Assembly (NCBI RefSeq): GCF_022378355.1
Contig: NZ_JAKMAJ010000009.1
Coordinates: forward strand, 1 to 64,000
Origin: Brenneria bubanii
GTDB lineage: Bacteria; Pseudomonadota; Gammaproteobacteria; Enterobacterales; Enterobacteriaceae
Length of the DNA: 64,000 nt
Reading direction: 5' to 3'
A model generated the notes under the pieces. It did not search any database and was not told where the DNA came from. It saw only the letters and a program-made list of their open reading frames with translations. Numbering within the stretch: position 1 is the first letter of the stretch; every line of letters begins with the position of its first letter. Positions 14,480 through 33,462 of this stretch are shown here, piece after piece. Position numbers and translations under genes: made by a program.

Positions 14480-15546
14480 AGCCGGTTTGCGTTTTAGGTG
14501 ATGGTCAGTTAGGCAGAATGTTGCGTCAGGCCGGCGAACCCCTGGGTATTGCGGTTTACCCCGTTGGATTGAACGCGGAACCGGAATCGGTTCCTTTCCA
14601 GAACAGCGTGATTACCGCTGAAATCGAACGCTGGCCGGAAACCGCGCTTACAAAGGAACTGGCTCAACATACCGCGTTCGTTAACCGCGATATTTTCCCG
14701 CGTCTGGCCGATCGCCTGACGCAAAAACAATTACTGGATTCCCTGAACCTGGCTACCGCCCCCTGGCAGTTGCTGGCCGACGCCGATCAATGGCCGCAGG
14801 TTTTCGCCCGGCTGGGCGAGCTGGCCATCGTTAAGCGTCGCGTCGGCGGTTATGACGGCCGCGGACAATGGCGCCTGCGCGCTGGGGAACAGCATACGCT
14901 GCCGGCCGACTGTTACGGCGAATGTATTGTCGAGCAAGGCATCAACTTTTCCGGCGAGGTATCGCTGGTTGGCGCCCGCAATACCCACGGCGACTGCGTG
15001 TTCTATCCGCTGACGCACAACCTGCATCAGGACGGTATCCTGCGCGCCAGCGTTGCCCTTCCCCACCCGGCACCGCAGCTTCAGCGCCAGGCGGAGCAAA
15101 TGCTGTCGGCCATTATGAATGAATTGGGCTACGTCGGCGTCATGGCGATGGAATGCTTTATCGTCGGCGATCGTTTACTGATAAACGAGCTGGCGCCTCG
15201 CGTACACAATAGCGGTCACTGGACACAGAACGGCGCCTCTATTAGCCAGTTTGAACTGCATCTGCGGGCAATACTAGATCTGCCGATGCCGGTTCCCGCC
15301 GTCGATAGCACGTCGGTGATGGTCAACCTGATCGGAACTGCGGTTAATATTGACTGGCTGTCGCTGCCGCTGGTGCACCTGCACTGGTATGAAAAAGAAG
15401 TGCGTCCCGGACGCAAGGTCGGACATATGAACTTGCGGGCGCAAGATCATACGCAGCTGCAACAGGCGTTACGCTCGCTGGCGGCCATGCTGACGGATGA
15501 ATATCAGCCAGGTCTGGCCTGGGCGCGCGCGAAGCTATCGGCCTGA
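14476..15546 (+). CDS. purK: N5-carboxyaminoimidazole ribonucleotide synthase
   Basis: This ATP-grasp enzyme carboxylates AIR with bicarbonate to N5-CAIR. The 356-residue product has [11 protein letters not shown] at the N-terminus, the ATP-binding [13 protein letters not shown], and the ATP-grasp metal-site region [13 protein letters not shown]. Its start overlaps the purE stop (ATGA), and the product feeds directly to PurE. A strong hairpin follows the stop. Confidence 0.97.
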
Positions 15547-15561
15547 TTCGCCATCTCTTCT

Positions 15562-15595
15562 CTCTTCAGGCATAGGGTGCTCTATGCCTGAAGAG
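15562..15595 (+). terminator. 14-bp perfect hairpin after purK
   Basis: CTCTTCAGGCATAG (15562-15575) is the exact complement of 15582-15595 with a 6-nt loop, 15 bp past the purK stop. There is no long T-tract, so it may act as terminator or as mRNA 3' end protection. Confidence 0.6.
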
Positions 15596-15831
15596 CGTTA
15601 TCAAGCAAACCGCTTTTGAGAGTAAGAAGGAAAAGCGACTTTCAGCATGAGACATGAATTTACGGTTATTATTTAAGCTTGCAACCAGTTAACAACTGAA
15701 CATTATTCAGGCTGCGAAAATAAAATAGCGCATCAAAATATATCCATTAAAATATATTAAAAATAACGCACCAATATTGATATTTTAATTTACTGAAATG
15801 CTCACTAAAATAATTTCATTCAATTGATTTT

Positions 15832-15847
15832 TGTGATCACCTTAATA
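15832..15847. promoter_or_regulatory. Candidate CRP site upstream of sdaC
   Basis: TGTGA-TCACCT-TAATA has a perfect left half and a 3 of 5 right half against TGTGA-N6-TCACA, about 150 bp before sdaC. E. coli sdaCB is known to be CRP-activated, which makes the site plausible. Confidence 0.4.
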
Positions 15848-15899
15848 TTATTTTCTGCGCATACTGATAGAGAACTCGGTCAAAAAACAGCCTCCTACC

Positions 15900-15915
15900 G
15901 ACATATTTATATGTC
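15900..15915. promoter_or_regulatory. Short palindrome upstream of sdaC
   Basis: GACATA-TTTA-TATGTC is a perfect 6-bp inverted repeat 80 bp before the sdaC ATG, where an operator could sit. No regulator is assigned. Confidence 0.3.
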
Positions 15916-15995
15916 CTGTTTATTTTTTATCCCTGTAACGGCAACTTGCCGGTACTGTATTTTTTATACACCGTGTTCACTGAGGAGAAACGAAC

Positions 15996-17279
15996 ATGAG
16001 CACTATTCAAGGTAGCGGCCAGTTAGTAGATCAGGCTTCCGTCTGGCGGAAAAGCGATACCGTCTGGATGCTGGGCCTTTATGGCACAGCCATTGGCGCC
16101 GGTGTATTATTTTTACCGATAAATGCGGGTATTGGCGGCCTGATACCTTTAATTATTATGACCATTATTGCTTTCCCGATGACCTATTATTCCCATCGCG
16201 CCTTGTGTCGTTTCGTTTTATCAGGTAAAAAAGGCGGCGAAGATATAACCGAAGTGGTTGAAGAACATTTCGGTGTGGATGCCGGTAAATTAATCACCCT
16301 ACTTTATTTTTTTGCAATTTATCCCATTCTGCTGGTTTACGGTGTGGCAATAACCAATACGGTAGAGAGTTTTATTATTCATCAAATGCATTTACCGGCG
16401 CCGCCAAGGGCGATATTGTCACTCATATTGATTCTGGGATTAATGTTCATCGTCCGTTTTGGCGAAGCGATGATCGTTAAGGCAATGAGCGTTCTGGTTT
16501 ATCCATTTGTCGCTGTTTTAATGGTGCTGGCTTTGTATTTAGTCCCCCACTGGAATACCTCTGTTTTCGACAATGTCTCTTTAGCCAACAACATAACCGG
16601 TAATGGTTTGCTGGCGACAATGTGGCTGGCGATCCCGGTGATGGTGTTCTCCTTCAACCATTCGCCGATTATCTCCTCGTTCGCCGTCGCCAAGCGCAAA
16701 GAATATGGCGACGAGGCTGAGAAAAAATGCTCTCGCATTCTGTCTTACAGCCATATCATGATGGTGATTACCGTGATGTTTTTCGTGTTCAGCTGCGTCC
16801 TGAGCCTCTCGCCAACCGAGCTGATGGAAGCGAAAACACAAAACATCTCTATTCTGTCTTACCTGGCGAACCACTTTAATAACCCGATGATAGGCTATCT
16901 GGCGCCGATCATTGCCACTATCGCCATTTCAAAATCGTTTCTCGGCCATTACCTGGGCGCCAGCGAAGGCTTCAACGGTATAATCGTGAAGTCGCTGCGC
17001 AGCCAGGGTAAAGCGATCGCCAGCCACAAGCTGAACCGCATTACCGCGCTGTTCATGCTGATCACCAGTTGGATTGTCGCGACGAAGAACCCAAGCATAC
17101 TGGGCATGATTGAAACGCTGGGCGGCCCCATCATCGCCTGCCTGCTGTTTCTAATGCCGATGTATGCCATTCAGAAAGTCCCGGCGATGAAAAAATACGG
17201 CGGCCACATCAGCAATCTGTTCGTTACCGTCATGGGACTGATCGCCATCTCCGCCATCATCTACAGCCTGTTTGGCTAA
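15996..17279 (+). CDS. sdaC: Serine permease (HAAAP family proton symporter)
   Basis: The 427-residue inner-membrane protein has about 11 transmembrane segments and is close to E. coli SdaC throughout: WMLGLYGTAIGAGVLFLPI near the start, GEDITEVVEEHFG, FSFNHSPIISSFAVAKR in the middle, and LGGPIIACLLFLMPMYAIQ near the end. SdaC imports L-serine with protons. In E. coli it is followed by the deaminase gene sdaB; here pstB lies convergently downstream and no serine deaminase is adjacent. TcyP/TdcC-like threonine transport is an alternative within the family, but the sequence favours SdaC. AGGAG lies before the ATG. Confidence 0.92.
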   Translation: MSTIQGSGQLVDQASVWRKSDTVWMLGLYGTAIGAGVLFLPINAGIGGLIPLIIMTIIAFPMTYYSHRALCRFVLSGKKGGEDITEVVEEHFGVDAGKLITLLYFFAIYPILLVYGVAITNTVESFIIHQMHLPAPPRAILSLILILGLMFIVRFGEAMIVKAMSVLVYPFVAVLMVLALYLVPHWNTSVFDNVSLANNITGNGLLATMWLAIPVMVFSFNHSPIISSFAVAKRKEYGDEAEKKCSRILSYSHIMMVITVMFFVFSCVLSLSPTELMEAKTQNISILSYLANHFNNPMIGYLAPIIATIAISKSFLGHYLGASEGFNGIIVKSLRSQGKAIASHKLNRITALFMLITSWIVATKNPSILGMIETLGGPIIACLLFLMPMYAIQKVPAMKKYGGHISNLFVTVMGLIAISAIIYSLFG

Positions 17280-26152: not shown

Positions 26153-27085
26153 TCAGTAAACGCCGTCATACGGCGTAACGTCATCCATCACCGCGCCGGT
26201 CAGATCGGCGATACGCATAATCCCCTGTTGCCGACAATAGGCCTGTAAATCGTCAAGAATGGTAATCATCGCCGTCGGGTGAATAAACGTTGCCGTTCCC
26301 ACCTGAACCGCGCTGGCGCCGGCGTAAAAATATTCAACCACATCGTCGGCATGGCTAATGCCGCCGCAGCCGATAATCGGAATGGATACCTGCTTATGGC
26401 ACTGGTACACCATACGCAGCATAATCGGCTTGAGCGCCGGCCCGGATAGCCCGCCCATAATATTGCCCAGTTTAGGACGGCGGGTCTGAATATCAATACT
26501 CATGCCCAGCAGGGTATTGCCGACCACAATGGCCTCCCCGCCCTCATTTTCGACCGCCTGGGCAACCGCGGCGATATCGGCGGTATTGGGCGTCAGTTTG
26601 GCCCATAGCGGCAGACGCGTGGCGCGACGCAGCGCTCGGATAACGCTGGCGGTCGAGCCAGGTTCAATGGCAAACGCTTTACCATCGGCCTCGATGTTGG
26701 GACAGGAGATATTGGCTTCGATCGCCGTAATGCCCGCAACGTCGCTGAGCCGTTCGGCCAGTTGCGCAAATTCATCCGCCGTATTGGCGGAAATACTGAC
26801 AACCAGCGGCGGCTGATAGCGTTGCCAAAACGGCACGACATGCTGAATAAAATGCTCGACGCCTTTTCCCGGAATGCCAATCGAATTAAGCATCGATGAA
26901 TTCAGCTCGCAAACCCGGGGAACCGGATTGCCGGCGCGCGGATGCCGGGTAAAGGTTTTGGTAACAAAAGCGCCCAGCCGATTGACATCCATCACCTCGG
27001 TCAGCCCTTCAGCAAAGGTGCCGGATGCCGGCATAACCGGATTGGCCAAGCGTAACCCGTTGAGATTGACGGATAGATCGATCAC
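26153..27085 (-). CDS. pyrD: Dihydroorotate dehydrogenase, class 1B catalytic subunit
   Basis: The 310-residue TIM-barrel flavoprotein interconverts dihydroorotate and orotate at FMN. Class 1B features are clear: active-site Cys in EANISCPNIE, VGNTLLGMSIDIQTRRP, GGLSGPALKPIMLRMVYQ and IIGCGGISHADD. Class 1B enzymes work with a PyrK subunit and use NAD, unlike the quinone-linked class 2 PyrD that enterobacteria use for pyrimidine synthesis. The start is GTG, overlapping the upstream pyrK-like stop (GTGA), so the subunits are coupled. As the host should already own a class 2 enzyme, this pair may run in the catabolic, orotate-reducing direction; that is inference. Confidence 0.93.
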   Translation of the reverse strand: MIDLSVNLNGLRLANPVMPASGTFAEGLTEVMDVNRLGAFVTKTFTRHPRAGNPVPRVCELNSSMLNSIGIPGKGVEHFIQHVVPFWQRYQPPLVVSISANTADEFAQLAERLSDVAGITAIEANISCPNIEADGKAFAIEPGSTASVIRALRRATRLPLWAKLTPNTADIAAVAQAVENEGGEAIVVGNTLLGMSIDIQTRRPKLGNIMGGLSGPALKPIMLRMVYQCHKQVSIPIIGCGGISHADDVVEYFYAGASAVQVGTATFIHPTAMITILDDLQAYCRQQGIMRIADLTGAVMDDVTPYDGVY

Positions 27086-27882
27086 AGCACCACCTCGCGT
27101 AAGTTAAACACCGGACCGTCATAACAGACGCGTTTACTTTCCTGCTTTCCGCACGCGCCGACCTTCATTGGCCGCACGCAGCAGTAACACATGCCAAGCC
27201 CGCAGGCCATCTGTTGCTCCAGCGCCACTTCGCCGACGAAATCCAGCGCCGTGGACAGCTTTTGCAGCAATCGAGTCAGGCGCGACGAACCACAGGTATA
27301 GGCGGCGTCAATCGGCAGGCGCTGGTGCAGTGAGCGAATCAGGCGTTCCACATTCTCCACCTCGCTGGAGCTATCGCTGTCCAGCACTTCAATCAACTGC
27401 GCGCCGCTATCGAGAAAGCGTTGCTGCGACATCAGGCTCTGCCGATTTTTGGCGCTGAGCAACGCCGTCACCTGAATATTCATCGCCGCCGCATATTCCG
27501 CCAGCGGGGCAAGCGTCGCCAGCCCCACGCCTCGCCCAACCACCAGAATATGGCGGTAGTCGGGCGCCAGCGTAAACCCTTTTCCCAGCGGACCAAGGTA
27601 GCTCAAGCGATCGTCCGGATTTAAAGTGGCGAGCCCGCGCGTGCCGGCGCCCACCACCTTGTAGAGAAAATCCACCCTTCCTTGCTGTTCGTCAGCGAAC
27701 CAGGTACTCATCGGACGACGAAAAAAAGGTTTGTCGGCATCGGTTTGCGGACAGAGTAAATTAAAAAACTGTCCCGGCTTGACTTGCGATGCAACCGACC
27801 CGACGTGAATCGCCATATGCTTGTATTCACTGTTAACCCACTGGTTACTGATAACCCGGGCGGTTCCATCCATAATCGTCAT
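27082..27882 (-). CDS. pyrK: Dihydroorotate dehydrogenase electron-transfer subunit (PyrK type)
   Basis: The 266-residue iron-sulfur flavoprotein passes electrons between NAD(H) and the FMN of the class 1B subunit. The FAD-binding FFRRPMSTW is at about 60-68, the nucleotide-binding VVGRGVGLATLAPLAEYA at about 118-135, and the C-terminal [2Fe-2S] cysteines in MACGLGMCYCCVRP plus the final KRVCYDGPVF. The start is the ATG at 27882 after GGAG; a seven-codon extension is less likely. First gene of a two-gene operon with pyrD, divergent from the XRE regulator gene. Confidence 0.92.
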   Translation of the reverse strand: MTIMDGTARVISNQWVNSEYKHMAIHVGSVASQVKPGQFFNLLCPQTDADKPFFRRPMSTWFADEQQGRVDFLYKVVGAGTRGLATLNPDDRLSYLGPLGKGFTLAPDYRHILVVGRGVGLATLAPLAEYAAAMNIQVTALLSAKNRQSLMSQQRFLDSGAQLIEVLDSDSSSEVENVERLIRSLHQRLPIDAAYTCGSSRLTRLLQKLSTALDFVGEVALEQQMACGLGMCYCCVRPMKVGACGKQESKRVCYDGPVFNLREVVL

Positions 27883-28292
27883 AACGTCTCCGCTAAATAT
27901 CATTGTTATGCAATAACGCGCTGTCTGTGCTGGTCTGTATAAGGAATAAAAGCGTGAAGTTAAAAAAACATTCCGCTGTTATAAAATAGTCTGGCGATAT
28001 AGCCGCTACCCTAATTGCGCCGCAGTATCAGCACGCGTATTTATTTGGTTTCCCTGGTGAGGCAACCATAATTAAAATAAAAAACTAATCAATTTCACCA
28101 TTACTTCTATTGCGCCAGCGAGGTTATATCTCGCCGCCTGAAGTTCGTACTACAGTTAACCGCTCTGCCGCCGCTAATAGGCTTTTCCCGTCAGCGCTCC
28201 CTGATATGGCCGGCCGCGGCGCACGGCGCGCTACATTGTCAGCATGATCCTTTGGTGTTAAAATCAGGCAAATTTTCGGCATATAGAGCACC
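27883..28292. promoter_or_regulatory. Divergent pyrK / XRE-regulator intergenic region
   Basis: About 410 bp, AT-rich at 27955-27990 and 28070-28110, with space for two promoters. A small dyad GTTAT-GCA-ATAAC at about 27904-27917 lies just upstream of pyrK and GCGAG-GTTATAT-CTCGC near 28118. Either could be an operator for the adjacent regulator. No sigma-54 or NtrC-like sequence was found here. Confidence 0.4.
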
Positions 28293-29180
28293 ATGAAAAA
28301 TACCGCGATCGATTATCTGGCTATCGGACAAAGACTGAGAGCTTATCGTATAGCGGCCTCATTAAATGCTGAGCAAATTGCCTCGGCGCTTGGCATATCC
28401 CGCGCCGCCGTATATCGGCTTGAAAAAGGCGAGATAAAGAAAATTGAAACGCTTGAGCGTCTGGCCGAATGCCTGAATACCACATTCGAAACCCTGCTTG
28501 GCGTCGGGATGGAATACTATTCCCACGCCAGCGGCTTCTTTGAAAGAATGCGTCAGCTTGAAGAGAACTCCACGCGTATCTATTCCCATTTCGACCCTTT
28601 TTCCTATCTGTTAACGTCGGAACACTACGACGACTATCTGAAACAAATGCTGCTGGAAGCGGACAATAATCGTACGGATTCAGATGTTCTGGACGAAAAA
28701 TCACGACAGACGCTTGATATCCTGTTCGAACGAAAATCTCATCTGAATAAACACCTGCCAAAAATTCATAACCTTATCGGCATTCAACACATTGAAAAAT
28801 TCATTCATCTCGGCCTTATCGGCACGCTGAACATCTCCCCCAGCGCCAGAATGGAACGTGTTCTGCTGGCGCGGCAGGAAGTTCAACATTTGCTACAGAT
28901 TCTCGAAGAGAAAAAAAACATTGTTCAGGTGGCGATTACAACCGAGACGATGCCCTCATCCACATTCCAAATTTTTTATAAAGACCGCGAGCCGCTCTCG
29001 GTCGCTTCCAGTCCGTTCCGCCTCGGCGAACTCCCTAATATTCATTCAGGCGTAGCCTGGGTTTCTTCGTCGAAAGAGGCCATTCTTCATCACCAGTCGC
29101 TTTTTGATGGACTCTGGAATAACGCCGCCAAAGGCGAAGACGCCTGTCGGTTATTACAGGAAACGCTGGACCGCTTTTAA
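28293..29180 (+). CDS. XRE-family transcriptional regulator with uncharacterised C-terminal domain
   Basis: The 295-residue product carries a helix-turn-helix at about 11-68 (IGQRLRAYRIAASLNAEQIASALGISRAAVYRLEKG), which is a standard Cro/C1 DNA-binding domain. The ~220-residue remainder is unknown to me: a helical part (about 85-170) followed by a mixed region containing VQVAITTETMPSSTFQIFYKDRE that could be a ligand-binding domain. It is divergent from pyrKD and abuts the amidohydrolase gene tail to tail with no spacer. Position makes it the likely local regulator of the pyrKD and amidohydrolase genes, with a pyrimidine or ureido compound as possible ligand; both are inference. Confidence 0.85.
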   Translation: MKNTAIDYLAIGQRLRAYRIAASLNAEQIASALGISRAAVYRLEKGEIKKIETLERLAECLNTTFETLLGVGMEYYSHASGFFERMRQLEENSTRIYSHFDPFSYLLTSEHYDDYLKQMLLEADNNRTDSDVLDEKSRQTLDILFERKSHLNKHLPKIHNLIGIQHIEKFIHLGLIGTLNISPSARMERVLLARQEVQHLLQILEEKKNIVQVAITTETMPSSTFQIFYKDREPLSVASSPFRLGELPNIHSGVAWVSSSKEAILHHQSLFDGLWNNAAKGEDACRLLQETLDRF

Positions 29181-30425
29181 TCAATCCGCATTGGCTAACT
29201 GCCCTAACGTCTGTTTCAACACCCTGGCCGCGGTGATCATCTCCTGCGGACTGGTGTACTCGTCGGGATGATGGCTGATGCCGTTTTTCGATGGCGCGAA
29301 TATCATGGCCGTAGGGTATTTGCAGGCCATATACATGGCGTCATGCCCGGCGCCGCTCATCATGCGCCGATAGCTGACGCCTTGATCCAGCGCGACGTTT
29401 TCAATCACATCGCAGATGGCGTTATCAAGCGAAACCGGGCTTTCCGCCGCAACCAGCTCAAGTGAAATATCAACGTCGTTTTCTCCCGCGGTCTTGGCGA
29501 CCGAATCTTTCAGACGTTCGGCGACACGCTGAATACTGGCCGGGTCGACGCCGCGAATATCGACATAAAACGTCACCAGTCCGGGGATCACGTTCATGGC
29601 ATTCGGTAAAACATCCAGCTTGCCGACGGTGCCTACCGTGCCATAAATAATTTCTTTACAGGCGGCATGATTAATATCGTTAATCATCATCGCGCTGGCC
29701 ACCAGCGCATCGTGCCGCTGATACATCGGCGTGGCGCCTGAGTGGTCGGCGCAGCCGGTTACCCTGACCCGGTAGCGTGTCGGCGCGGCGATGCCGTACA
29801 CAATGCCGATCGCCTTGCCTTCATTTTCCAGCACCCGGCCCTGTTCGATATGCAACTCCACAAAGGCCGAATAACGCGCGGCCGCCAGTTCGCAGTCCGC
29901 CACCTGACTCGCCGAATAGCCGCACTGCTCCATCGCCTGAAAGACATTCAGTCCGTCGTCGTCGGTATTTTCACGCCATTTTTTTGCGTCGCTACGGCCG
30001 GTCAAGATCTTGCTGCCGATGCAGGAAAAACCAAAACGGCTTGACTCTTCGCCTCTGAAAACAACCAGTTCCAGATCTCTGCGCAGTTCTCCGGGCCGAT
30101 ACTGCAACAGCGAATACAAACCGCCGACCACGCCCAACGTACCGTCGTAGAGACCGCCGGAGGGCACGCTATCGATATGAGAGCCGGTCCCCACTGCCGC
30201 GAGCGAGCGATCCCAACCCGGCAGACGCGCAAAAATATTGCCCACCGCATCGCGACTCACGTTCAGCCCCAATGACGCCATTTTCTCCGCCAGAAAATGA
30301 TGCGCATGTTCATCAGCTTCACCAAAAGCCAGGCGCGTAACGCCGCTTTTTCCCGTCGTCATGGAAAAAGAACTCAGCGCTTCCAGTAAATATCCGATGT
30401 CCTCAGCACCAAAACATGACCCCAT
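29181..30425 (-). CDS. N-carbamoyl-L-amino-acid hydrolase / ureidopropionase (M20 family)
   Basis: The 414-residue Zn- or Mn-dependent amidohydrolase belongs to the allantoate amidohydrolase/HyuC branch of peptidase family M20. Metal ligands are visible in GTGSHIDSVPSGGLYDGTLGV (His and Asp), the RGEESSRF Glu pair, ELHIEQGRVLE and the C-terminal SHHPDEYT His. The lid-domain GCADHSGATPM is typical. These enzymes hydrolyse N-carbamoyl amino acids or ureidoglycine-type substrates to the amino acid, ammonia and CO2. The start is the ATG at 30425 after GGAG. Beside a dihydroorotate dehydrogenase, N-carbamoyl-aspartate is an attractive substrate, but hydantoin- or uracil-derived ureido acids and allantoate remain possible. 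Confidence 0.9.
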   Translation of the reverse strand: MGSCFGAEDIGYLLEALSSFSMTTGKSGVTRLAFGEADEHAHHFLAEKMASLGLNVSRDAVGNIFARLPGWDRSLAAVGTGSHIDSVPSGGLYDGTLGVVGGLYSLLQYRPGELRRDLELVVFRGEESSRFGFSCIGSKILTGRSDAKKWRENTDDDGLNVFQAMEQCGYSASQVADCELAAARYSAFVELHIEQGRVLENEGKAIGIVYGIAAPTRYRVRVTGCADHSGATPMYQRHDALVASAMMINDINHAACKEIIYGTVGTVGKLDVLPNAMNVIPGLVTFYVDIRGVDPASIQRVAERLKDSVAKTAGENDVDISLELVAAESPVSLDNAICDVIENVALDQGVSYRRMMSGAGHDAMYMACKYPTAMIFAPSKNGISHHPDEYTSPQEMITAARVLKQTLGQLANAD

Positions 30426-30921
30426 CACCACACTCCGCGCATTCGCCCAGCCCCTTTCCGGCCTGTTTTACAGGATCGAACCGTCGATCCTGTTCCCCCG
30501 CCACAATGACGTCGGGGGATTTCAGTGTTGCTCGGTTATCCGGGGCGAGTCAATATTTTTGTCTAAAAATTTAGACAAAAAGTCATTATCACTGGCAGCG
30601 CTGAAAATTAACCAACTGTTTAATATCGATTAAACCATTTCCACATTGCATCGTAGACATGATAAAAATCGATGATTTTAGTGATTTGTATCTTTTTTTA
30701 TACAAAAGAGTCACAGAGCGATTGACAAGACCTTGCTTTCGTTTTAGAAAGTGAGGTTTTCCAAATCTATACTCAGCAGATATCAGGCTACAGGCGGATA
30801 TTTCGTTTTCCCGTTTCCGCAACCTTACTCAGGTGGTGAGTCGCGGAGTTTGCGGGAAGCCAAAGCCAAGGTCGCTCATCTGATGAATATAGCCGGATGA
30901 TGCTAATCAAAGGTGGCAGTG
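30426..30921. other. Divergent intergenic region upstream of the amidohydrolase gene
   Basis: About 500 bp between the amidohydrolase and the small gene at 30922. It holds the palindrome at 30556-30581 and AT-rich DNA up to 30720. Open frames in it (30361-30633 plus, 30589-30822 minus) lack recognisable products and overlap the palindrome. Confidence 0.45.
30556..30581. promoter_or_regulatory. 26-bp palindrome, probable operator of the amidohydrolase gene
   Basis: TTTTTGTCTAAA-AA-TTTAGACAAAAA has perfect 12-bp arms with a 2-nt centre, ~130 bp upstream of the amidohydrolase start. The TTGTCTA...TAGACAA core looks like a dimeric repressor site, for example of GntR/FadR type. The cognate regulator is unknown. 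Confidence 0.6.
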
Positions 30922-31257
30922 ATGGATTTTACAAACGTATATCATGCATTTACTGAAAGTCTCGATGGGACTGACAGCTACGTATCCCTGCGGAAAGATT
31001 TAGACGATTTGATCAGCGCCGATCCCGATAACGCGGTGTCTTACTACATCCTGCGCGGTCTGGCGGACAGTTATGTCACGCTCTACGCCGACCAGGCGAT
31101 CACGCCTGATTTCGCATCCAGAGCGAAAAAGGAAATGACCCAGCTTTTGGATATCGTCAAAGATATATTGTCCGGCGATAACGTCTCGGCGGAACAACGT
31201 TACCATGCCGTCAACCAGTTGGTGGTTACCTACTGGTCAGGCAAAAAACACTTCTAA
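30922..31257 (+). CDS. Small uncharacterised protein
   Basis: I do not recognise this 111-residue protein. It is acidic, has no signal peptide, membrane segment or cysteine, and looks wholly helical: a first part with DSYVSLRKDLDDLISADPDNAVSYYILRGLADSYVTLY and a second with SRAKKEMTQLLDIVKDIL and SAEQRYHAVNQLVV. The start is the ATG at 30922 with AAAGGTGG five bases upstream, which supports it as a real gene. It lies between the amidohydrolase and the NtrC/sigma-54 region of the MFS gene. A soluble accessory or tetratricopeptide-like helper is conceivable but unsupported. Confidence 0.65.
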   Translation: MDFTNVYHAFTESLDGTDSYVSLRKDLDDLISADPDNAVSYYILRGLADSYVTLYADQAITPDFASRAKKEMTQLLDIVKDILSGDNVSAEQRYHAVNQLVVTYWSGKKHF

Positions 31258-31403
31258 AACGTCCCGGTCAGGTTCAGCGCCGCGATGCCTGACCCACAGC
31301 GCCTCATCACCCCGGCAACGCATTTTCCGTTACTCTGTCGTATCAAAAATGAAACAAGCGCGTCTTCTGGCATCGACCGCCATTGCCGCTTCGCTTTTTG
31401 AGT

Positions 31404-31481
31404 TTAACCAAATTAGTGCAACAGCGGCCGTAAATGCACCAAATTAATGCAATGCAAAAATAAACGCATCAATTTAGTGCA
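31404..31481. promoter_or_regulatory. Three NtrC-like boxes forming an enhancer
   Basis: Three 17-bp sites resemble TGCACCA-N3-TGGTGCA: TTAACCAAATTAGTGCA (31404-31420), TGCACCAAATTAATGCA (31435-31451) and CGCATCAATTTAGTGCA (31465-31481). They match 11, 12 and 11 of 14 consensus bases. Their centres are 31 and 30 bp apart, three helical turns, so all face one side of the DNA. They lie about 208-269 bp upstream of the start predicted from the sigma-54 promoter at 31655. Confidence 0.75.
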
Positions 31482-31654
31482 CACCATCAGATCAATAACT
31501 CTACTCATACCGATAAAACGCTCACTCGCTGTTGGTTTCAGTATGAAACCATCTCATCAAAAAAATCAATATATCAAAAAATTACAACAACACGCTTTAT
31601 CAATTCAGCATCGAAGCACAGTCTCCTTTCAAAGATAGTCTTAAGGTGAAAATT

Positions 31655-31670
31655 TGGCACCATTATTGCT
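31655..31670 (+). promoter_or_regulatory. Sigma-54 promoter of the MFS transporter gene
   Basis: TGGCACCATTATTGCT fits TGGCAC-N5-TTGCW exactly, with ten bases between the invariant GG and GC. Transcription should start near 31681, giving a ~107-nt leader before the ATG at 31788. The upstream NtrC-like boxes make it a likely nitrogen-limitation promoter. Confidence 0.8.
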
Positions 31671-31787
31671 TGCCCTATTGTATCAAAATTGATACTACCG
31701 CTGTTTACGGAAGCAACGAACATTGCAACATCATTTTACTTTGCCATTTATTTTTACTTTGACATTGCCAACACCAGGAGTGAAACC

Positions 31788-33044
31788 ATGGACCCAACCT
31801 GTCCAGATAAAACATCCTCAGCAGAGCCTGCCGTTGAGGGAAAACAAGTTGTTGATAGTTATAGTTGGAAAGCGTTAGCCGGCTCGGCAATAGGCTATGC
31901 CATGGACGGTTTCGACCTGCTGATTCTTGGCTTCATGCTGACCGCCATTTCAACCGACCTCAACCTGACGTCCGGTCAGGCCGGTTCGCTGGTCACCTGG
32001 ACGCTGATTGGCACGGTGATCGGCGGCCTTATTTTCGGCGCGTTGAGCGATCGATTCGGCCGTATCCGCGTACTGACCTGGACCATCGTGCTTTTCGCCG
32101 TATTTACCGGTCTGTGCGCCTTTGCCCAGGGATACTGGGACTTACTGCTATACCGCACGATCGCCGGTATCGGTTTAGGCGGCGAATTTGGTATTGGCAT
32201 GGCGCTGGCCGCTGAAGCCTGGCCCGCCCGCCACCGTGCTCGCGCCTCTTCTTATGTCGCATTGGGCTGGCAGTCCGGCGTATTGGCCGCTGCGGTGCTG
32301 ACGCCGCTTCTTCTGCCCCATATCGGCTGGCGCGGCATGTTCATTGTCGGCGTGATCCCGGCGTTTGTCGCCTGGTTCATCCGCCATCGTCTGCATGAGC
32401 CAGAGGTATTCGTCCGTAAGGCGGCAAGAAAAAAACCGGCGCTGGAGTCATTCAAACTGCTGGTCAAGGACAAGGCGACCAGCAAAATCAGCGCAGGAAT
32501 TATTATACTGACCTCCGTACAGAACTTCGGCTATTACGGCATCATGATCTGGATGCCGAGCTTTCTGGCCAAAACCCTGGGGTTCAACCTGACCAAATCA
32601 GCCATGTGGACGTCCGTTACCATCATGGGGATGATCGCCGGTATCTGGGTCTTTGGACAATTAGCCGATCGCATCGGACGAAAACCCAGTTTTCTGCTGT
32701 TTCAGAGCGGCGCGCTGATCATGGTTCTGACCTATTCGCAGCTGTCCGATCCCTTCACCATGTTATGGGCCGGCGCGCTGCTGGGAATGTTTGTTAACGG
32801 CATGATGGGAGGATACGGGGCGCTGATGTCCGAAGCCTACCCAACCGAGGCCCGGGCCACCGCGCAAAACGTGTTGTTCAATATTGGCCGCGCCGTCGGC
32901 GGGTTTGGCCCGGTGATTATCGGCGCCGTAACCAGCTTATATTCATTCCAGATCGCCATTGCGCTACTGGCGGCGATTTATGTTCTTGATATTCTGGCGA
33001 CCTTATTCCTGGTGCCGGAACTGAAAGGCAAAAGTCTCGACTGA
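31788..33044 (+). CDS. MFS transporter, carboxylate/metabolite:proton symporter type
   Basis: The 418-residue inner-membrane protein has 12 predicted membrane segments. YAMDGFDLLILGFML in segment one and GALSDRFGRIRVLTW in the 2-3 loop are typical of the aromatic acid/metabolite:H+ symporter branch of MFS; a second such loop is GQLADRIGRKPSFLL, and EAYPTEARATAQN lies near segment ten. The start is the ATG at 31788 after CAGGAG; an in-frame extension to 31689 overlaps the untranslated leader. Relatives import organic acids such as benzoates, shikimate or sialic acid. With the neighbouring genes, orotate or a ureido acid is a reasonable guess for the substrate. Confidence 0.9.
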   Translation: MDPTCPDKTSSAEPAVEGKQVVDSYSWKALAGSAIGYAMDGFDLLILGFMLTAISTDLNLTSGQAGSLVTWTLIGTVIGGLIFGALSDRFGRIRVLTWTIVLFAVFTGLCAFAQGYWDLLLYRTIAGIGLGGEFGIGMALAAEAWPARHRARASSYVALGWQSGVLAAAVLTPLLLPHIGWRGMFIVGVIPAFVAWFIRHRLHEPEVFVRKAARKKPALESFKLLVKDKATSKISAGIIILTSVQNFGYYGIMIWMPSFLAKTLGFNLTKSAMWTSVTIMGMIAGIWVFGQLADRIGRKPSFLLFQSGALIMVLTYSQLSDPFTMLWAGALLGMFVNGMMGGYGALMSEAYPTEARATAQNVLFNIGRAVGGFGPVIIGAVTSLYSFQIAIALLAAIYVLDILATLFLVPELKGKSLD

Positions 33045-33246: not shown

Positions 33247-33462
33247 ATGTCCACCCTTATTCATAAACGACGAATGTCAGTGCGATCGCGACGAAGTGGC
33301 ACCCGTCTTGCTCGCGCCGTGTTACTCATCAGTTTCATCATCCTCTTAGGCCGTTTTGCTTACTCCACCATCAGCGCGATTGCTTATCATCAGGACCAAC
33401 AGCAACAGCGTATCGAACAACCCTTCACTACCGTCGATATACTCATCAACAAGAAAGAATAG
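33247..33462 (+). CDS. yfgG: Small membrane protein YfgG (DUF2633 type)
   Basis: The product is a 71-residue basic protein with a single transmembrane segment (about 26-46) in ARAVLLISFIILLGRFAYS, matching the core of E. coli YfgG (RIVLLISF, then GRFIYSS). The ATG at 33247 is chosen over an upstream start at 33217 to fit family length. In E. coli yfgG lies close to ppk-ppx, so its presence here marks the original right-hand neighbour of ppx, now 7 kb away. Its molecular role is unclear. Confidence 0.78.
   Translation: MSTLIHKRRMSVRSRRSGTRLARAVLLISFIILLGRFAYSTISAIAYHQDQQQQRIEQPFTTVDILINKKE

Follow-up and report, generated by a model that had tools for sequence, protein, structure and literature searches.

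Fermentation of orotate by Clostridium (Zymobacterium) oroticum proceeds by NAD-linked reduction of orotate to dihydroorotate, conversion of the latter to N-carbamoyl-aspartate, and release of aspartate, ammonia and CO2. Here we analyse a gene island of Brenneria bubanii (Enterobacteriaceae; RefSeq assembly GCF_022378355.1) that may encode a route of this kind and lies between ppx and yfgG in a stretch of 64,000 nucleotides (contig NZ_JAKMAJ010000009.1, positions 1 to 64,000, forward strand; hereafter the window). A preliminary description, made from the DNA letters and a list of open reading frames (ORFs), had read the locus as a possible orotate or dihydropyrimidine nitrogen-scavenging island. 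The comparisons below support orotate catabolism, and we consider it likely that, by means of the island, orotate from outside the cell serves as a source of nitrogen, and probably of carbon.

In the proposed pathway, orotate would enter through an MFS symporter and be reduced with NADH to dihydroorotate by a PyrK-PyrD pair, which would thus run the biosynthetic reaction in reverse. A dihydroorotase (housekeeping PyrC here, a dedicated operon copy in many relatives) would open the ring to N-carbamoyl-L-aspartate, from which an amidohydrolase would release aspartate, CO2 and ammonia. An XRE-family protein is predicted to repress at TGTMTMA-N4-TKAKACA operators, one of which coincides with the expected transcription start of the sigma-54-dependent mfs gene. 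Orotate transport would then depend both on nitrogen limitation, signalled through NtrC, and on a ligand, presumably orotate or a product, that releases the repressor. A small protein may serve as an accessory factor.

Results

Relatives of the island and co-occurrence of its genes

A scan of 84,980 species genomes with a PyrK alignment returned 222 relatives; we retained the 80 best, which together with the window give 81 loci (65 of the 81 stretches at full length). Loci were picked by PyrK alone and, because the 80 are the best of 222, the counts given here describe near relatives. Their hosts include Serratia, Symbiopectobacterium, Orbaceae, Pigmentiphaga, Massilia, many Alphaproteobacteria and one Chloroflexota bin. 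Across the 81 loci, the amidohydrolase gene was present in 77, pyrE (orotate phosphoribosyltransferase) in 61, xre in 54 and pyrC (dihydroorotase) in 35; the amidohydrolase gene directly followed pyrD in 68, and the enteric loci show the rearranged order of the window. Proteins sampled from these loci carried the NCBIfam names pyrC_dimer, orotate phosphoribosyltransferase and hydantoinase/carbamoylase. A member of the aspartate ammonia-lyase sequence cluster lay within the operon in 8 of the 81, one of them named as such by NCBIfam.

The preliminary description had named five genes (PyrD, PyrK, XRE regulator, amidohydrolase and MFS transporter), and all were found where it had placed them, with NCBIfam and Pfam families as named; it had overlooked a sixth, small gene, so that the block comprises six genes (Table 1). 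Co-conservation, which it had proposed to survey, was evident: the six genes recur with identical order and orientation in two genomes of another genus (G022 and G167; loci L013 and L014), at a different chromosomal site flanked by a cytochrome b561-like gene on one side and the folD region on the other (names from ORF reading), and the core of the module is present in the 80 loci found through PyrK. The module is not confined to enterobacteria and is widespread. A PyrD tree built from 79 of the 81 rows placed the window with L017 and L018 (support 99/94) and then, weakly, with L016 (92/46); the Orbaceae were sister to this group (100/99), and Massilia and Pigmentiphaga were the next neighbours (99/94).

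G114, a congeneric genome with a 92% identical ppx, has a gap of about 560 bp between ppx and yfgG that contains no island, and no PyrK was found in that genome; the island is an addition to the B. bubanii genome. Real PyrK matches were found in 3 of 198 genomes of the family (six more were weak, E 1e-7 to 3e-5) and in 1 of 369 genomes of the class, namely the window's own. No match to positions 26153-29180 was found in 5,426 E. coli genomes.

A class 1B dihydroorotate dehydrogenase beside separate biosynthetic genes

PyrD exceeded the NCBIfam cut-offs of PRK07259 (366 bits, cut-off 269) and TIGR01037 (304 bits, cut-off 270), and its best PDB match was the Lactococcus lactis enzyme DHODB (1ep1, E 7e-76). 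In class 1B PyrD the active-site base is a cysteine; Cys128 was found in all 83 sequences compared (the 81 loci and two plasmids), and the active-site positions checked were kept in 82-83 of the 83. PyrK matched the PRK00054 models below cut-off (best 120 of 314 bits) and Pfam DHODB_Fe-S_bind above cut-off, and its nearest PDB entries were class 1B electron-transfer subunits (5ksw_B, E 2e-24). Each of the 81 aligned PyrK sequences, which came from 79 loci and 2 plasmids after two short rows had been dropped, has all four cysteines of the 2Fe-2S cluster, and the pyrK and pyrD genes overlap (Table 1). On this sequence evidence, the pair belongs to class 1B dihydroorotate dehydrogenase, in agreement with the preliminary description.

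The host genome comprises 4.89 Mb in 533 contigs. A quinone-type (class 2) pyrD lies beside pepN on its contig C7 (G000) and scores above cut-off for TIGR01036 (472 bits) and PRK05286. A housekeeping pyrC lies on contig C14 and pyrE on contig C5. Both genes that the preliminary description had proposed to look for, class 2 pyrD and pyrC, are thus present elsewhere; with this and with the co-occurrence of the genes in relatives, those of its refuting conditions that could be checked did not come about. Its suggestion that the housekeeping PyrC could supply the dihydroorotase step agrees with the gene on C14; other loci have operon-borne copies. Contig C5 also carries (as L116) a separate cluster of PreT-PreA, dihydropyrimidinase and carbamoylase genes for ordinary pyrimidines; given this cluster, we rejected the idea that the island duplicates the uracil pathway. 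An aminotransferase gene adjoins the L116 cluster.

Probable alternative importers

Importer genes fell into two types across the 81 loci: MFS in 40 and TRAP in 22-23 (large subunit in 23, binding protein in 22). Both occurred together in a single locus (L046), which suggests that MFS and TRAP are alternative importers; chance neighbourhood of either type was rejected on account of this exchange pattern. MFS homologues outside the window were 60-85% identical to its transporter, those in L017 (the G022 contig) and L018 84-85%. The nearest NCBIfam model of the window protein was the aromatic acid/H+ symport family (356 bits, below the cut-off of 418). The TRAP binding protein of an alpha-type locus (L029) had 4nn3 as best PDB match (E 5e-133, 59-65% identity), and 4NN3 is the TRAP binding protein Desal_2161, reported with bound orotic acid (PMC11668362); orotic acid also appears among the TRAP ligands listed in PMC5812351. 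The exchange of MFS for TRAP makes orotate a candidate substrate of the MFS transporter as well. In E. coli, DctA is given as the orotate transporter (PMC3781023).

An amidohydrolase with a conserved arginine

The amidohydrolase passed TIGR01879 (hydantoinase/carbamoylase; 373 bits, cut-off 204) and PRK09290.1-5 (434, cut-off 399) and failed the AllC allantoate equivalog TIGR03176 (297 bits, cut-off 598); its closest PDB relative was a ureidoglycolate hydrolase (E 1.7e-76). Arg126, which adjoins the conserved Glu128-Glu129, was present in 72 of 73 operon copies (four of the 77 having been dropped for length or score), in two plasmid copies examined, and in 1 of 5 paralogues from the same genome. 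In an alignment read by eye, this position held Thr in the ureidoglycolate enzyme and the deacylase and Ala in the allantoate enzyme. Arg126 is a candidate holder of the side-chain carboxylate of aspartate, and the enzyme, right in both family and place, is a candidate ureidosuccinase that may act on N-carbamoyl-L-aspartate. The paralogue with Arg126 (G000:C6:74804-75991, L099) is a carbamoylase closer than the other paralogues to the alpha-type operon enzymes.

Operators and promoter elements

The regulator matches Pfam HTH_3/HTH_31. The palindrome TGTMTMA-N4-TKAKACA, at one mismatch or fewer, had 37 matches in 1.42 Mb, 32 of them upstream of operon genes, in 22 loci; its spacing was set after a first scan with the pattern of the window's two palindromes, and the pattern came from four enteric loci, to which 18 of the 22 do not belong. 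Twelve controls with permuted half-sites gave 0-4 matches each, none upstream of operon genes. The operator at 30560 forms a 20-bp palindrome kept in L013 and L014, and 100 shuffles of the window produced none. Repression by the XRE protein through this operator is the simplest reading, with orotate or a product as the presumed ligand.

The preliminary description had placed a sigma-54/NtrC promoter before the symporter gene. A sigma-54 match is indeed present (Table 1), and what had escaped notice is the conserved XRE operator (30560, 30687 and 31679), which would act in addition to sigma-54. The sigma-54 motif alone is weak, because the window has 5 matches at one mismatch or fewer against a mean of 2.9 in shuffles, and a second site with 0 mismatches lies at 33297, inside yfgG. 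A site with equal spacing nevertheless precedes mfs in the window, L017, L018 and L019, at a distance of 120-133 nt; of the 13 occurrences of the pattern across the 81 loci, these four alone fall within 350 nt ahead of an assigned gene. The two NtrC-like sites have one mismatch each and are exactly 30 bp apart, and the pair recurs with this spacing in L017 and L018, while the number of such sites in the window is at the chance level (6 versus 7.8). An ntrC gene is present in the host genome. These patterns are consistent with a role for NtrC in the expression of mfs. The ORF listed for mfs opens at TTG 31689, and the likely start is the ATG at 31788.

Table 1 Features of the island, in coordinates of the window
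Feature	Position	Strand	Basis
pyrD, class 1B dihydroorotate dehydrogenase catalytic subunit, proposed orotate reductase	26153..27085	-	NCBIfam, PDB, active-site residues
pyrK, electron-transfer subunit with FAD/NAD and 2Fe-2S domains	27082..27903	-	PDB match, cluster cysteines
XRE-family regulator, proposed island repressor	28293..29180	+	Pfam HTH_3/HTH_31; homologue in 54/81 loci; operator enrichment
M20 / hydantoinase-carbamoylase family amidohydrolase, proposed N-carbamoyl-L-aspartate amidohydrolase (ureidosuccinase)	29181..30431	-	TIGR01879; Arg126
Operator TGTCTAAAAATTTAGACA, gap between amidohydrolase and small genes	30560..30577		0 mismatches to TGTMTMA-N4-TKAKACA
Second operator, same gap	30687..30704		1 mismatch to TGTMTMA-N4-TKAKACA
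Small helical protein gene, no family found	30913..31257	+	Homologues in 51/81 loci; AlphaFold2 model
NtrC-like site 1	31436..31450		1 mismatch to GCACYN5RGTGC; position kept in L017, L018
NtrC-like site 2, 30 bp after site 1	31466..31480		1 mismatch; spacing identical in L017, L018
Sigma-54 promoter of mfs, TGGCACCATTATTGCT	31655..31670	+	0 mismatches to TGGCAC-N5-TTGCW
Third operator, at the expected sigma-54 start point	31679..31696		1 mismatch; kept in alignment with L013, L014
MFS transporter, 418 aa, proposed orotate/H+ symporter	31788..33044	+	Nearest NCBIfam aromatic acid/H+ symport; homologues in 39 other loci

A small protein family associated with the module

The small protein has 114 aa as listed, or 111 aa from the second ATG. 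It had no Pfam or NCBIfam match, and none of five relatives scored above cut-off in Pfam. Two profiles, which match each other (hhalign E 7e-10), detected 52 copies in 51 of the 81 loci (E <= 0.01 within loci), four rows from Jiella/Rhodobacterales being weak at 30-35 bits. AlphaFold2 modelled the protein with high confidence as a helical bundle (mean pLDDT 93.4); identification as an HPt domain (CheA P1) was dropped after fold comparison gave no clear match. The small protein thus appears to represent a family without a Pfam or NCBIfam model and a constant partner of the orotate module.

Plasmid-borne forms

Among 72,556 plasmid records, 75 carried PyrK relatives, and Klebsiella accounted for 53 of the 75. 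The Klebsiella form (L121:7320-14557; viewed in L119-L124) consists of an Opr-like porin gene (34 bits, below the cut-off of 100), mfs, pyrK, pyrD, amidohydrolase gene, pyrC, xre and a small gene, and its MFS transporter is 80% identical to that of the window, with a similar sigma-54 site 124 nt before mfs. At least 80% of this form was covered in 53 records, all Klebsiella and nearly all at 99% identity or more. The stretch from pyrC to lacZ was covered to at least 80% in at least 49 plasmid records, a lower bound drawn from the 5000 best records; in the six plasmid records viewed, lacYZ lay beside the operon in five and not in one. Milk or mastitis milk was given as source in 9 of the 53 Klebsiella records, a figure with no background rate for comparison.

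On the conjugative Pseudomonas putida plasmid p716811-VIM (L117, 5331-15085), the module comprises xre, mfs, pyrK, pyrD, hydrolase, dihydroorotase, small and malic enzyme-like genes, with three operators (one mismatch or fewer) before its xre and pyrK. A chemoreceptor gene adjoins this module at 15187-16857; sensing, and with the malic enzyme-like gene consumption of the carbon skeleton, would agree with these additions. A Paroceanicella profunda plasmid (L118, 6052-12060) carries a PyrK-PyrD pair among genes for a ring-hydroxylating dioxygenase and cupins, along with an asparaginase-like gene, which looks like another use of the pair.

Evidence against orotate catabolism and alternative functions

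Several observations weigh against use of orotate as a nitrogen source. In two Orbaceae genomes (L020, L021) no second strong PyrD was found, so that the class 1B enzyme of these two is probably biosynthetic; in L021 and L025 nothing of the module remains except pyrK and pyrD. The enzyme can therefore serve synthesis. With pyrC and pyrE being synthesis genes, the island could be an additional, NAD-linked route of pyrimidine synthesis, for instance for anaerobic growth, in which PyrKD oxidises dihydroorotate to orotate and the pyrC and pyrE of relatives supply the neighbouring steps. We regard this as very unlikely, given that B. bubanii carries a quinone-type pyrD, a pyrC and a pyrE outside the island, that a further strong PyrD was found in 12 of 14 host genomes examined (one with a stop codon inside the match), that an amidohydrolase, an importer and an aspartate ammonia-lyase would make no sense in synthesis, and that the window version of the island is without pyrC and pyrE. 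In the Orbaceae L020, L021 and L025 (of which the genomes of L020 and L021 were searched), a catabolic enzyme may have taken over synthesis.

The frequency of pyrE among the loci would also fit use of orotate, a pyrimidine precursor, for uridine monophosphate (UMP), and hence mixed use. That orotate is scavenged for UMP only, with the amidohydrolase acting on something else, strikes us as extremely improbable: an importer and the housekeeping PyrE would suffice, while a reductase, a ring opener and a carbamoylase would waste orotate, the sigma-54 promoter with its NtrC-like sites is suggestive of nitrogen, and the aspartate ammonia-lyase of 8 loci also speaks against it.

Two further points concern the substrate. 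PyrKD relatives occur in other settings, such as beside the dioxygenase of the Paroceanicella plasmid, and enteric amidohydrolases share no more than about 30% identity with those of alpha/beta loci, from which they separate in a quick tree, so that a shared substrate is deduced from context and Arg126. The island might instead break down a different ring or ureido compound, such as a carbamoyl amino acid or a hydantoin or uracil substituted at position 5, in which case PyrKD would act on an orotate look-alike. This would agree with the other settings of PyrKD-like pairs and with the breadth of both the MFS and the amidohydrolase families, the solved enzyme closest in sequence to the amidohydrolase being ureidoglycolate hydrolase. 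We consider it very unlikely in view of the PyrD active-site positions checked, which are kept in 82-83 of 83 relatives, the dimeric dihydroorotase equivalog pyrC in the operon of 35 loci, the closeness of the TRAP binding protein to 4nn3 and the separate dihydropyrimidine cluster of the genome.

The remaining observations against it concern regulation. Sigma-54 sites precede mfs in only 4 of the 81 loci, no NtrC-like pair was found before mfs in Klebsiella L121, and before pyrKD of the window no operator or sigma-54 site with fewer than 4 mismatches was found (best candidates 4).

Discussion

If catabolism of external orotate is indeed the function of the island, genes can be assigned to the old clostridial pathway, and a common nitrogen route of Proteobacteria has been hidden in annotation by the synthesis names pyrD, pyrK, pyrC and pyrE. 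The pathway would become testable in ordinary laboratory hosts, with a regulator of defined operator and an orotate symporter family as predictions and a small protein family flagged for attention.

Orotate is abundant in ruminant milk. We tentatively propose, as a possibility somewhat short of an even chance, that a mobile orotate regulon with its own repressor, operator and working small-protein family runs through Alpha-, Beta- and Gammaproteobacteria. On this view, the availability of both lactose and orotate in ruminant milk would be the reason why it reached Klebsiella of clinics and dairies as a plasmid island next to a second lac operon. The plasmid form beside lac provides a concrete ecological hypothesis, growth in milk, for a metabolic load on plasmids known mainly for resistance. 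Neither a gene cluster for breaking down orotate nor the operon, regulon, small protein or plasmid form was found described in the open-licence PubMed Central papers searched, one key 2015 study not being among them; this solute-binding-protein study may itself have proposed an orotate pathway on the basis of gene neighbourhoods, so novelty is not secure. The chemistry is old and known in outline, and the genetic module is, as far as our searches went, a novel form of it.

The reaction sequence proposed for the island is the same as that of the C. oroticum fermentation. The island differs in residing in aerobic or facultative Proteobacteria, in being known from genes and not from enzyme fractions, in its predicted control by sigma-54 (in enterics) and an XRE operator, and in its MFS or TRAP importer, M20-type amidohydrolase and small protein. 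With L. lactis PyrDB-PyrK (1ep1) the pair shares both subunits, the active-site positions and the Fe-S cysteines, but here it is a second enzyme beside a quinone-type PyrD, set among catabolic genes. Desal_2161 resembles the TRAP binding protein of alpha-type loci, whereas the window has an MFS symporter in place of TRAP. ErtE, the N-carbamyl-L-glutamate amidohydrolase of the ergothioneine pathway (NF058540), belongs to the same M20 carbamoylase family and was the second-best model for the window enzyme (379 bits), which falls below its cut-off of 520 and would belong to another pathway. Finally, the reductive uracil pathway (PreTA, dihydropyrimidinase and beta-ureidopropionase) has a common logic of ring reduction, ring opening and carbamoyl removal, but it is encoded in the separate cluster L116, its PreA belongs to another family, and its ring opener is dihydropyrimidinase, not PyrC.

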